The notes below the pieces were generated by a model that ran no database searches, was not told where the DNA came from, and worked only from the letters and a program-made list of their open reading frames with translations. From positions 1 to 38,192 of the IMG/VR virus record IMGVR_UViG_3300030099_001185: a stretch of DNA of 38,192 nucleotides; one strand, given 5' to 3'. The position numbers were made by a program, and so were the translations under genes. Source of the stretch: a virus. Shown one piece after another: positions 8,902-23,000 of this stretch. Numbering within the stretch: position 1 is the first letter of the stretch; each line of letters begins with the position of its first letter.

Positions 8902-9061
8902 ACTAAAAGCTGTAATTAATATTGATGTAGACTCAGATGAATACTTCATGCCAACAGATGAAAATGTTGAAGAAGAGTTAGAAAGTCATATAAAAGATTG
9001 CATCTTTGATGTTGATGGTGTAGAAATAAAATATATTTCAATTACTAGGAGACTTAAATGA
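8888..9061 (+). CDS. 57-residue conserved-type small protein before ribonucleotide reductase
   Basis: Encodes 57 residues (MIKIKLKAVINIDVDSDEYF at the start, EIKYISITRRLK at the end). It overlaps the end of the DUF3310 gene by 14 bases and its TGA overlaps the ATG of the reductase (ATGA, 9058-9061). The product is acidic in the middle with two beta-strand-like stretches at either end, suggesting a small beta-alpha-beta fold. It fills the only gap in this part of the early arm, and the exact overlap on both sides supports it being translated. Function unknown; translational coupling to the reductase is inferred. Confidence 0.65.
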   Translation: MIKIKLKAVINIDVDSDEYFMPTDENVEEELESHIKDCIFDVDGVEIKYISITRRLK

Positions 9062-10986
9062 ACAACTACTTACCCACAGACTACCAAAATTTTATAGCAT
9101 TATCACGTTATGCTAGATGGAATGATGATGAGCAAAGAAGAGAAACGTGGATTGAAACTGTAGATAGATACTTTTCGTATATGAGTAAGCATTTAAAGAA
9201 AAAACATAATTATATTTTAACAAAAGCATTAAGTAATAAATTAGGTGAAGGAATAATTTCTCTAGGTGTCATGCCTAGTATGAGAGCATTAATGACAGCA
9301 GGTGTTGCTTTAGACAGATGTCATGTTGCAGGTTATAATTGTAGTTACATACCTGTTGATAGTCCTCGTTCTTTTGATGAGTGTATGTACATTCTTATGT
9401 GTGGTACAGGTGTAGGATTTTCAGTTGAAAGAGAAAATGTAGATAAGCTTCCTATAGTTAATGAACACTTTGAGAATAGTACAACAGTAATAACTGTAGC
9501 TGATAGCAGACCCGGATGGGCAAGAGCTTTACGTGAATTAATAGCTATGTTATACGTAGGTCAAATACCATCTCTAGATGTATCACAAGTTAGACCTGCA
9601 GGTGCTAGATTAAAAACTTTTGGTGGTAGAGCAAGCGGCCCTCAACCATTAGTTGATCTATATAACTTTTGCATTGCAATATTTAAAAAAGCTGCAGGTA
9701 GAAGATTATATCCTATTGAGTGCCATGATATAATGTGTAAGATTGGTGAGGTAGTAGTAGTTGGTGGAGTTAGACGATCTGCTCTTATATCTTTATCTAA
9801 TCTTGGAGATGATCAAATGAGACACGCAAAGTCAGGATCATGGTGGGAGAATGAAGGGCATAGAGCTTTAGCTAATAACTCTGTAGCTTATAAAGGTAAG
9901 CCTGATATGGGTACATTTATGAGAGAATGGTTAGCATTATATGAATCTAAGTCTGGTGAACGTGGCATATTCAATCGTAAATCTGCTAAGAAAAAAGTAG
10001 AGGAAAATGGAAGACGTGATTCTGATTATGCATTTGGCTGTAATCCTTGTAGCGAAATAATTTTAAGACCTTATCAGTTTTGTAATTTAACCGAAGTTGT
10101 ATGCAGAGAAAGTGATACTTTAACATCATTAAAAGAAAAAGTTAGAATGGCTACAATACTAGGCACATTCCAATCAACTCTTACAGAGTTTAAATATCTT
10201 AGAAGAGTATGGAAAGATAACACAGAAGAAGAAAGATTATTAGGTGTGTCATTAACAGGTATATTGGATTGTCCTATATTAGCACCTAATGAAGTAGGTC
10301 TATATGACACATTAGATCAATTAAAAAAGGTAGCTATTGAAACAAACAAAAAGATTGCTCAAGATTTAGGCATACCACAATCCACTGCTATAACTTGTAT
10401 CAAGCCATCAGGAACTGTATCACAATTAGTTGATAGTGCTAGTGGTATTCATGCAAGACATAATCCATATTATGTTAGAACTGTTAGAGGAGATAATAAA
10501 GACCCATTAACACAGTTTATGAAAGAGGCAGGGATACCTGTTGAACCCGATGTTATGAAGCCTGATAGTGTAGCAGTTTTTAGTTTTCCTATGAAATCAC
10601 CTAAGGGTGCAGTAACAAGAACAGAGATGACAGCAGTAGAACAGCTAGATTATTGGCTAACCTTTCAAAGACATTGGTGTGAGCACAAACCTTCTGTTAC
10701 TGTGTCTGTAAAAGAAAATGAATGGATGCAAGTTGGAGCATGGGTATATGAAAACTTTGATGAAGTATCAGGTATATCTTTTTTACCATTCAGTGAACAC
10801 ACTTATAAACAAGCTCCATATCAAGATATAGAAGAAGCAGAGTATACAAAACTTATGGAAACAATGCCAAAGTCTATTGATTGGAGTAAATTACAAGATT
10901 ATGAAAAAGAGGACACCACTAATTCTAGTAAAGAGCTTGCTTGTACGGCAGGTGTATGTGAAGTGGTTGATATTGAAGCTAGTTAA
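9058..10986 (+). CDS. nrdJ: Class II (adenosylcobalamin-dependent) ribonucleoside-triphosphate reductase
   Basis: Reduces ribonucleotides to deoxyribonucleotides for phage DNA synthesis using coenzyme B12, with no separate radical subunit. 642 residues, of the monomeric RTPR type. Key residues match the Lactobacillus enzyme in spacing: C95 (YNCSY), the thiyl-radical C331 and E333 (NPCSE), C342 eleven residues later (FCNLTE), and the C-terminal redox pair C629/C634 (CTAGVC). Other conserved blocks are GVMPSMRALMTAG, LMCGTGVGFSVER and VVGGVRRSALIS. The ribosome site AGGAG lies at about 9047. No thioredoxin or glutaredoxin gene is in the window, so host reductants would be needed. It is the only clear metabolic gene here. 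Confidence 0.95.
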   Translation: MNNYLPTDYQNFIALSRYARWNDDEQRRETWIETVDRYFSYMSKHLKKKHNYILTKALSNKLGEGIISLGVMPSMRALMTAGVALDRCHVAGYNCSYIPVDSPRSFDECMYILMCGTGVGFSVERENVDKLPIVNEHFENSTTVITVADSRPGWARALRELIAMLYVGQIPSLDVSQVRPAGARLKTFGGRASGPQPLVDLYNFCIAIFKKAAGRRLYPIECHDIMCKIGEVVVVGGVRRSALISLSNLGDDQMRHAKSGSWWENEGHRALANNSVAYKGKPDMGTFMREWLALYESKSGERGIFNRKSAKKKVEENGRRDSDYAFGCNPCSEIILRPYQFCNLTEVVCRESDTLTSLKEKVRMATILGTFQSTLTEFKYLRRVWKDNTEEERLLGVSLTGILDCPILAPNEVGLYDTLDQLKKVAIETNKKIAQDLGIPQSTAITCIKPSGTVSQLVDSASGIHARHNPYYVRTVRGDNKDPLTQFMKEAGIPVEPDVMKPDSVAVFSFPMKSPKGAVTRTEMTAVEQLDYWLTFQRHWCEHKPSVTVSVKENEWMQVGAWVYENFDEVSGISFLPFSEHTYKQAPYQDIEEAEYTKLMETMPKSIDWSKLQDYEKEDTTNSSKELACTAGVCEVVDIEAS

Positions 10987-20034: not shown

Positions 20035-23000
20035 CTATCTAGCGTTGTTAAATTTAAACGGATTTGAAGCAAAGGCTAAGTACACGTAGGTATTACTCGC
20101 ACCTACATCAGCGTTATTACCCCGAACTTTGAAGCCATTGCTAACAAAGTCTATGTTAAAAGCACTACCACCTGTAGCGTTAGCTGATGAACTAGGTCTC
20201 ACTCCAATCGGTATTGGATTTGCTCTATCTGTATAATATCCACTATGTTCTATATCTCTTATTGTCCAATCTTCATCAGCATCTATATTTTTTATTAAGA
20301 GAAAACTGGGCAAAAACCCTGTGAAAACAAAGGCATTATCACTTGAAGAATTATTACCTTCGTAGCTACCTATTTTACTGAATCCCTCAACCGATTTAAA
20401 ACAGTAAGCTGTGTAAGTTGCATTACTTGAGTTTACTCCAGACGATGTTCCAATAGAAACAACAGTAGCTGTGGGCGATGTATTATTCCAAATAGTTGAG
20501 CTAGTAATTAAATCACTATCTGTGTTTAGTTGTAAATATTTAGTATTTCCAATAGTATTAAATTCTCCAACTGTCCAATTACCAGATACATTTGTTTTCT
20601 TTAGCAATATCATCTCTGGTGCAGAATTTAACCCATGTCCAAATGTTCCATTAACTGCAGTAGCAGCATAAGATACAATGCTAAACCCCGCAGTATTATT
20701 TGATTGCACCTTAGATTGTATAGTGCCTTCAAAATTAGAAGAACCTTTGGTGCTGTTAGTGTTTATAGATCCACCCATACCTCCGTGTATAGAACACCAA
20801 TAATATAACGCAGGTGCTGATGAAGGCACAGTAAATACCAATCGCCTAGTTGTAGCCGATGCATACCCACTTGTGTATTCACTGTATGTTTTAGACACTC
20901 CGTCTAAACTGTACGTTATACCTGAAGTGTAAACAGTTCCATTGGCTGACTCTCCTATACTAAATGGATGACCAGAATTACTAGAGTCATCCATGTTAAA
21001 TGTGTATACACCACCTTCTTGTAGGTCAAGCGTTACAGCTTGTTGACTAAAATCGTTAAATTCATATTTATTATTACTACCACCTGTTTGATTATTTCCT
21101 GTATAATCAACAACTTTTACAGTGTAAGTTATATTAGGTGTAGAGGTATCTCCCTTCCAATTCCATGTTGCGTATTTAGAATTATTTTTGTTTACTGGAT
21201 CATAAGTTGACGCACCTGATGTTACATTTATATTAACAGCAGTAATACTTGATATAACTCCAGTTTCCCCTTGAGTTTGTTCAATACCACCACAATAAGC
21301 TCCATACTCATCGTCAACATAATATCTAAAGTAATTTATAAATTGTATACTACCATCAGAATGAAATCTTGCTCCATAATATCTACAGTTAGGAGAACTA
21401 ACTTGATAAGTATGAGAAAAAAATATATAAGGAGACACATTAGTAGCAGAAGGATTAACATTTTGATTACCTGCACTTGCTCCATAGTAGGATGCATTAC
21501 CACCATTTGTCCAAGCTACATTACGAGTATTTACACCATAAGCACCAAAAATAGTTGTAGTATCAGCAACCGATATGTTGTCTCCTGCATTATATGTCGT
21601 ACTTCCTATTTGAATGCTTATACCAGAGGGAACTTTAGGTCTCCATCTTTGATTTCCACCAGTGCCTGTAACATATGCATCAAATACTACTTGTTGGGTT
21701 GCTCCTGCTTGTGCAGTATGTGTAAATCCATCTGCTGTAAATGCTGAAATCCAACCATTTGATGTTTCAGCATCTGAAGAAGGAGGTTGAAATTCTTTTG
21801 AAGAACCTCTTAAACTATCTACAAGAACATGATTAGTGCTATTGTCTGTTATATTTTTTATCCAAGTAAAATCAGGTTTAAAGTTAATGCCTGTTACGCT
21901 AAAACTTGCACCTGATCCAGTGTAAACTTTGTTTTGAAAATGATCGTTTGGCTGTTCATCTTCGTTAGCAGACAGCGTAACATCGGGTAGGTTAGATGAG
22001 CATAGTGCTAAATAACCACTAGGAGGTGCATAATAAAAATCTCCTTTACCATTACCATCACTAGAATTTGTTGAACCACTTGTTTTGTTGTATGCAAAAG
22101 TTGAATCTTGACCAAAATTTAAATATGTTGTTATTGGACTAGATTGTGCAGATTCTCCCACCATTGGAAAATATGGTGTTGCAGTTAAACTTGTAAAAGC
22201 AGTTCCTTGAGAAACATTATTTTTGTAAAAAGTTAATGTTCCATTATCGGCATCAAATGCTACACCAATTATGTCACCATTTTGAAATGTCGCACCATAA
22301 TTTGAACCACTATTATTATTGTATTTTTGCCCATTGTGTCCTGCATAACCATAAGCATGAGCATCTCCCCCTAAATAATTATCTAATGAGGCAGAAGCAG
22401 TACCTATACCAACCATAGAATCATTATCAGTAGCCAAGCCTTCAAAATACCATTTTCCACTAGTCATTCCAAACGTTGCTCTTGTTGCATAGTAACCTGC
22501 CCCAACTCCACTTTTTCCAGTAAATTTTAAATTTCCCTCTGATAAAGTACCTCCAGATAGTTCAAGAGCATTTAAAACTGCAAAATTATTAGTAGGCGAA
22601 TCAGGCACGATATCCCAACTATCTAAGTGATAAGCAGTATAATCATTACTACCTGCACTATCTTCTCCAATAGCATTACTATTTCCAAAATTTAAATAAA
22701 ATCCGTTATTACCATAAGTTAAGCCTGATACTGCTTTGGGTATCCAAACCCCTTGCTTCGTCTCTCCGAAGGTAGTAGGTGTTAATTGTTGTCCATCAAC
22801 AAAGTGCATCTCAGCCATGTAACCTGTAAAATGACTTCCTACTCTTTCTTTACCAATAGTAATTACATTAGTGGCAGTAAGTAATGTTGAGTTATAAGTA
22901 GCAGATGCGATGGTGTTTGTTGATAGTGTTTGTCTAACTCCGTTAACATAAATTATTGCTTTATCGTCTGTAGTAGAGTTAGAATGATCAACTGCACAAA

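Follow-up and report, generated by a model that had tools for sequence, protein, structure and literature searches.

Blue-copper-type sites are known from redox proteins, and the combination of one Cys, two His and one Met is the ligand set of type-1 copper sites. Ig-like domains on phage structural proteins are mobile beta-sandwich modules attached to virion proteins. Metal-binding tails have been described for the T4 gp37 tip and Alteromonas phage R22Y, which have iron-binding HxH tail fibres for which a Trojan or Ferrojan horse hypothesis has been put forward (PMC11705849). A viral nirK has also been reported (PMC8115048), and it is different from the virion-tail domain considered here.

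The window, which is the whole 38,192-base virus record analysed, encodes a DNA polymerase that shares 62% identity with the enzymes of Puniceispirillum phage HMO-2011 and Roseobacter phage CRP-345, and its source is therefore assigned to the HMO-2011-like podoviruses. The record also contains integrase and ribonucleotide reductase genes at 416-1366 and 9058-10986, both on the plus strand. The protein of interest (Table 1) scores 263.7 bits against DUF7483 (PF24299), for which the curated cut-off is 27, and its PHROG matches are to virion structural and tail fiber families. Its DUF7483 region is built from three repeats, homologous to one another and each about 110 residues long (hhalign 96-98%; window 20053-21954). 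A preliminary description of the sequence had called the protein a tail adhesin, which the tail-fibre, SPRY and DUF7483 matches bear out, and had placed H798, C856, H859 and M862 at 20776-20970, positions that are exact to the base.

Table 1. Features of the tail protein, in positions of the 38,192-base window
Feature	Positions	Strand	Basis
Tail-fibre/adhesin-type virion protein, 1108 aa	20035..23361	(-)	SPRY, DUF7483, PHROG virion structural and tail fiber matches
SPRY domain, aa 303-404	22150..22455	(-)	E 2.3e-20
DUF7483 repeat 1, aa 470-553	21703..21954	(-)	hhalign of repeats
Second insertion, aa 553-728	21178..21705	(-)	missing from isolate relatives
Inserted cupredoxin-type domain, aa ~741-873	20743..21141	(-)	conservation, model, structural matches, insertion comparison
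H798, N-terminal His ligand position, motif HPF	20968..20970	(-)	sequence and alignments
C856, Cys ligand position	20794..20796	(-)	sequence and alignments
H859, C-terminal His ligand position	20785..20787	(-)	sequence and alignments
M862, axial Met ligand position (Gln in P-RSM6)	20776..20778	(-)	sequence and alignments
DUF7483 repeat 2, aa 888-991	20389..20700	(-)	hhalign of repeats
DUF7483 repeat 3, aa 993-1103	20053..20385	(-)	hhalign of repeats

The cupredoxin-type domain lies between repeats 1 and 2 of the DUF7483 region. The tail proteins MEP301 gp16, CRP-406 and HTVC024P gp39 share the same framework at 38-45% identity but have neither this domain nor the second insertion, whereas the window protein has both. 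In these isolate relatives the repeats are uninterrupted, with AWNWKAGGTA running directly into VSNTAGTI, at a point where the window protein has about 135 additional residues. In all seven viral-contig relatives examined, the domain occupies the corresponding place, following repeat 1 and preceding the GFSIV of repeat 2. Compared with the isolate proteins, then, the domain is a separate module, cleanly inserted. The second insertion recurs in a further relative (78% identical), and a Pfam search gave no match within it.

The ligand loop of the inserted domain reads CSIHGGM, which has the C-x2-H-x2-M spacing of the amicyanin loop. That spacing appeared in 0.05% of 20,000 shuffles of the same 1108-residue protein, or 0.025% when a His 36-76 residues upstream was included, and among the 16 larger ORFs checked in the window only this one contains the looser pattern C-x(2,4)-H-x(2,4)-M. 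A chance motif is ruled out by the shuffles and, more strongly, by the invariance of the four columns described below. Because the domain contains a single Cys, an intradomain disulfide is impossible, which eliminates such a role for C856.

AlphaFold2, run on 57 sequences, predicted a beta-sandwich (pLDDT 88, pTM 0.84) whose Greek-key arrangement is of the cupredoxin type. The best Foldseek matches of the window-domain model were AcoP (3.9e-4) and rusticyanin (4.7e-4), followed mainly by laccases and NirK, at TM-scores of only about 0.5. VIA gave NirK 2dv6 with a Z score of 9.4 (rmsd 2.9 A over 105 residues), and small laccases were similar. The top Foldseek matches and the listed VIA rows are thus cupredoxins, with moderate scores. 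The structure prediction called for in the preliminary description places the ligands, relative to the strands, as in blue copper proteins: in model numbering, H58 (H798) stands just ahead of strand 60-63, C116 (C856) ends strand 112-116, and H119 and M122 (H859 and M862) precede strand 124-127, as expected of a cupredoxin ligand loop. In BFVD, 58 viral models match the window-domain model at E <= 1e-3, many of them cyanophage structural proteins. The matches in that database include A0A481Z6J5, A0A481Z7Q7 and A0A481YWX9, "beta-sandwich proteins" of Pithovirus- and marseillevirus-like type (124 and 133 residues in two cases); cupredoxins in giant viruses are a possibility that these model matches raise.

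At the level of sequence, a profile of the family matched NirK (2e-5), plastocyanin (3e-3), amicyanin, rusticyanin and pseudoazurin. In an hhalign comparison with pseudoazurin-type proteins the probability was 87% and the alignment paired H, C and H; the same comparison with azurin-type proteins gave no match. The search against cupredoxin profiles and marine virus proteins suggested in the preliminary description had a divided outcome: marine phage relatives proved abundant, but the window domain has no significant cupredoxin match in Pfam or NCBIfam, including PF00127 (Copper-bind) and TIGR02657. One bacterial relative (L208) scored 20.4 bits against PF00127 in one search and 24.0 in a genome search, on either side of the cut-off of 21.2, and the amicyanin model TIGR02657 weakly matched 3 of 28 relatives (best E 2.1e-4). 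PDB sequence searches with single family members found no relative.

These comparisons also bear on whether the fold might instead be immunoglobulin-like, with YYWC imitating the Ig "YYC" and the H/C/H/M pattern unrelated to copper. The family profile matches Ig light chains at 2e-3, similar to the cupredoxin E-values, and a P-HM2 protein is annotated with PF07686. The model of a related gp9-type domain (96 aa, pLDDT 83.5), from a query that may miss the first strand, found its best Foldseek matches among Ig-like folds at E 0.02 or worse, and in structural comparison cupredoxins and Ig folds tied for it at Z under 5. However, the window domain does not have the two-cysteine core of an immunoglobulin-like domain, cupredoxins are the leading matches of its model and recur widely among the rest, and its four ligands are conserved together. 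An Ig-like identity is accordingly regarded as very improbable.

The putative site was also examined for conservation. Among 28 phage domains with 20-93% identity to the window, the sole invariant columns are H, C, H and M, and the same four are the only invariant columns among 39 divergent phage and cellular domains. Both alignments had excluded rows with lost ligands, so the test was redone using a search profile in which these columns had been masked. All four ligands were then present in 231 of 241 distinct domains, a share that is not free of bias because loci had been fetched with peptide patterns, some of which included ligand residues. By source, the set is complete in 189/192 viral, 20/26 phage and 22/23 cellular domains. 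In the three viral exceptions the aligned part ends short of the full ligand loop, and the cellular one reads HCHG, with one additional residue ahead of its Met. A tree of 82 domains contains 11 rows that lack ligands, for which about three changes are needed. The preliminary description had held that homologues routinely losing these residues would speak against the site, and such losses prove to be few.

Most of the losses fall together: nine of the 11 rows are third copies from the wedge proteins of T4-like cyanophages and group as a single clade. Cys, His and Met have disappeared jointly throughout it, and only one row retains the first His. Cyanophage PSS2 gp080 (L251, 2492-2830) is a stand-alone member of 112 residues with its ligands replaced (DATM), only the Met being kept; judged by its sequence, it is a natural metal-free control. 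Its gene adjoins the tape measure gene. In cyanophage P-RSM6 the axial Met is replaced by Gln (CHHHTGQ, hence HCHQ), and Gln is also the axial ligand of stellacyanin, which makes this a Met-to-Gln axial variant of the same kind. The subfamily of the window domain includes the third-copy clade, PSS2 gp080, S-SSM4 (HCHM) and P-RSM6.

The ligand-less copies indicate that the fold can work without metal, and it might be argued from them that the domain is a metal-free scaffold throughout, its ligand residues being kept for structural reasons only. This seems improbable: in the divergent sets the four ligands are the sole invariant residues, Cys, His and Met disappear together where they disappear, the axial substitution is that of stellacyanin, and no structural role suggests itself for the single conserved Cys. 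Another reading has Zn, Ni or Fe in the site as a structural ion; cupredoxin sites do accept Zn and other ions in vitro, while the bacterial cytosol holds more Zn than free Cu. Yet Cys-His2-Met is the copper set of type-1 sites and Met is a poor Zn ligand, so that only a small chance is given to another metal.

The domain is widespread in marine phages. With tblastn (E <= 0.01) it was found in 322 phage records. Cyanophages make up almost all of them, the remainder being a few pelagiphages and other marine phages; many records are near-copies, and the figure is not a count of independent cases. Methylophages have matches only at a laxer cut-off. In viral contigs, at least 599 stretches match one query and 306 another, and the HP...CSxHxxM segments that the preliminary description had suspected in other marine phages were indeed found across phage records and viral contigs. 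The phage proteins that carry the domain are gp9-type baseplate connectors, wedge proteins and tail fibres. T4-like cyanophages have three cupredoxin-type domains in adjacent gp9 and wedge genes; in this trio, two domains have all four ligands and the third has jointly lost Cys, His and Met.

In a collection of bacterial and archaeal genomes, 21 contigs match, some of which are probably phage contigs within MAGs. SAR86, Woeseiaceae and Actinomarina carry the domain (in SAR86 the contigs concerned reach 460 kb), and several cellular copies are in lipoproteins or secreted proteins. Some of these SAR86 and Woeseiaceae proteins also have cadherin-like repeats. Cellular copies are rare, with 5 of 299 genomes positive in a sample of one phylum, and a plasmid search for the domain gave no match.

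Based on the fold prediction and the ligand conservation, which support the type-1 copper-like site in a cupredoxin fold that had been proposed, residues ~741-873 are likely to form a domain of cupredoxin fold, within a SPRY-bearing tail adhesin, in which selection has kept the type-1 copper ligand set complete, most likely with one copper per chain. We conclude that this virion adhesin has a genuine, selected site of type-1 copper type in a cupredoxin domain; its copper occupancy and function we infer. That the domain is common to hundreds of marine phages with all four metal-binding residues suggests that their tails bind copper. Several points count against this reading. The site has His-Pro where cupredoxins usually have His-Asn/Ser, a real difference; the window domain finds no significant cupredoxin match in Pfam or NCBIfam, and its Foldseek TM-scores are only about 0.5; and the Ig light-chain matches and the ambiguous gp9-type model blur the fold assignment. 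Moreover, the bacterial cytosol, where phage proteins are assembled, is thought to be almost free of unbound copper.

A simple model would have the apo or Cu(I) form fold inside the cell, each chain binding one copper ion that is already held or is acquired from the host or sea water. The metal would tie the CxxHxxM loop to the HP strand, and the resulting rigid knob may stabilise the exposed tail tip or join in surface contact. A metal-locked structural or adhesion module is the most likely function, copper-mediated receptor recognition is possible, and redox work is unlikely. More generally, it is tentatively proposed, as an extension that may well fail, that abundant marine phages (T4-like cyanophages, pelagiphages and HMO-2011-like podoviruses) have several type-1 copper centres per tail, loaded from host or sea water and serving attachment or tail-tip stability. 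If this were true, the copper-binding ligands of the ocean would include a pool made up of phage particles.

A direct part for copper in receptor recognition would amount to a copper Trojan horse, with the loaded domain recognised by, or mimicking, copper or cupredoxin proteins of the host surface. No receptor is known for it, phages of unrelated hosts have the domain in common, and T4 gp9 is a connector rather than the tip that binds the receptor, so this version is considered unlikely, even though the domain occurs in tail-end proteins (gp9-type connector, wedge and tail fibre) and, in marine bacteria including SAR86 and Woeseiaceae, in secreted proteins or lipoproteins, and iron-binding HxH motifs in marine phage tails have been discussed (PMC11705849). 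The complete ligand set would also suit a working electron-transfer cupredoxin on the virion. This last reading is extremely doubtful: the protein has no redox partner or enzyme domain, and without a partner electron transfer is unlikely; the domain sits within structural and adhesion proteins; and we know of no electron-transfer chain in a virion.

The predictions can be tested on the cultured phages P-SSM4, S-SSM4, HTVC028P, Melnitz and Baldr. The assignment also names domains in proteins that depositors had labelled hypothetical or merely structural, and in viral metagenomes such domains might be taken for metabolic genes (plastocyanin, nirK). Within the open PMC papers, no description of the domain in virions was found, the closest idea there being that of iron in HxH tail fibres (PMC11705849); the fold is already known, and what appears to be new is its occurrence in virions with the site intact.

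Compared with amicyanin-type cupredoxins (TIGR02657), the window domain agrees in the type and order of its four ligands and in its loop spacing, and its predicted fold is similar, but it is embedded in a viral structural protein, has His-Pro instead of His-Asn/Ser, has no redox partner and includes a helix (aa 826-835) inserted between strands. The cupredoxin domains of AcoP, rusticyanin, NirK and small laccases, its best structural matches, belong to redox proteins and enzymes, whereas this domain has been grafted into a tail adhesin. Grafted Ig-like domains are likewise mobile beta-sandwich modules, but they are without a metal site and differ in topology and conserved residues. The iron-binding HxH tail fibres (PMC11705849) are alike in placing metal-binding residues in marine phage tails, with a bearing on trace-metal chemistry; they use HxH pairs in an intertwined trimeric fibre to hold iron, in contrast to the self-contained domain described here, whose His2-Cys-Met set points by its sequence to copper. 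A conserved blue-copper-type site in the tails of marine phages as numerous as these would place the fold in a new setting and give the iron tails a parallel that uses copper.
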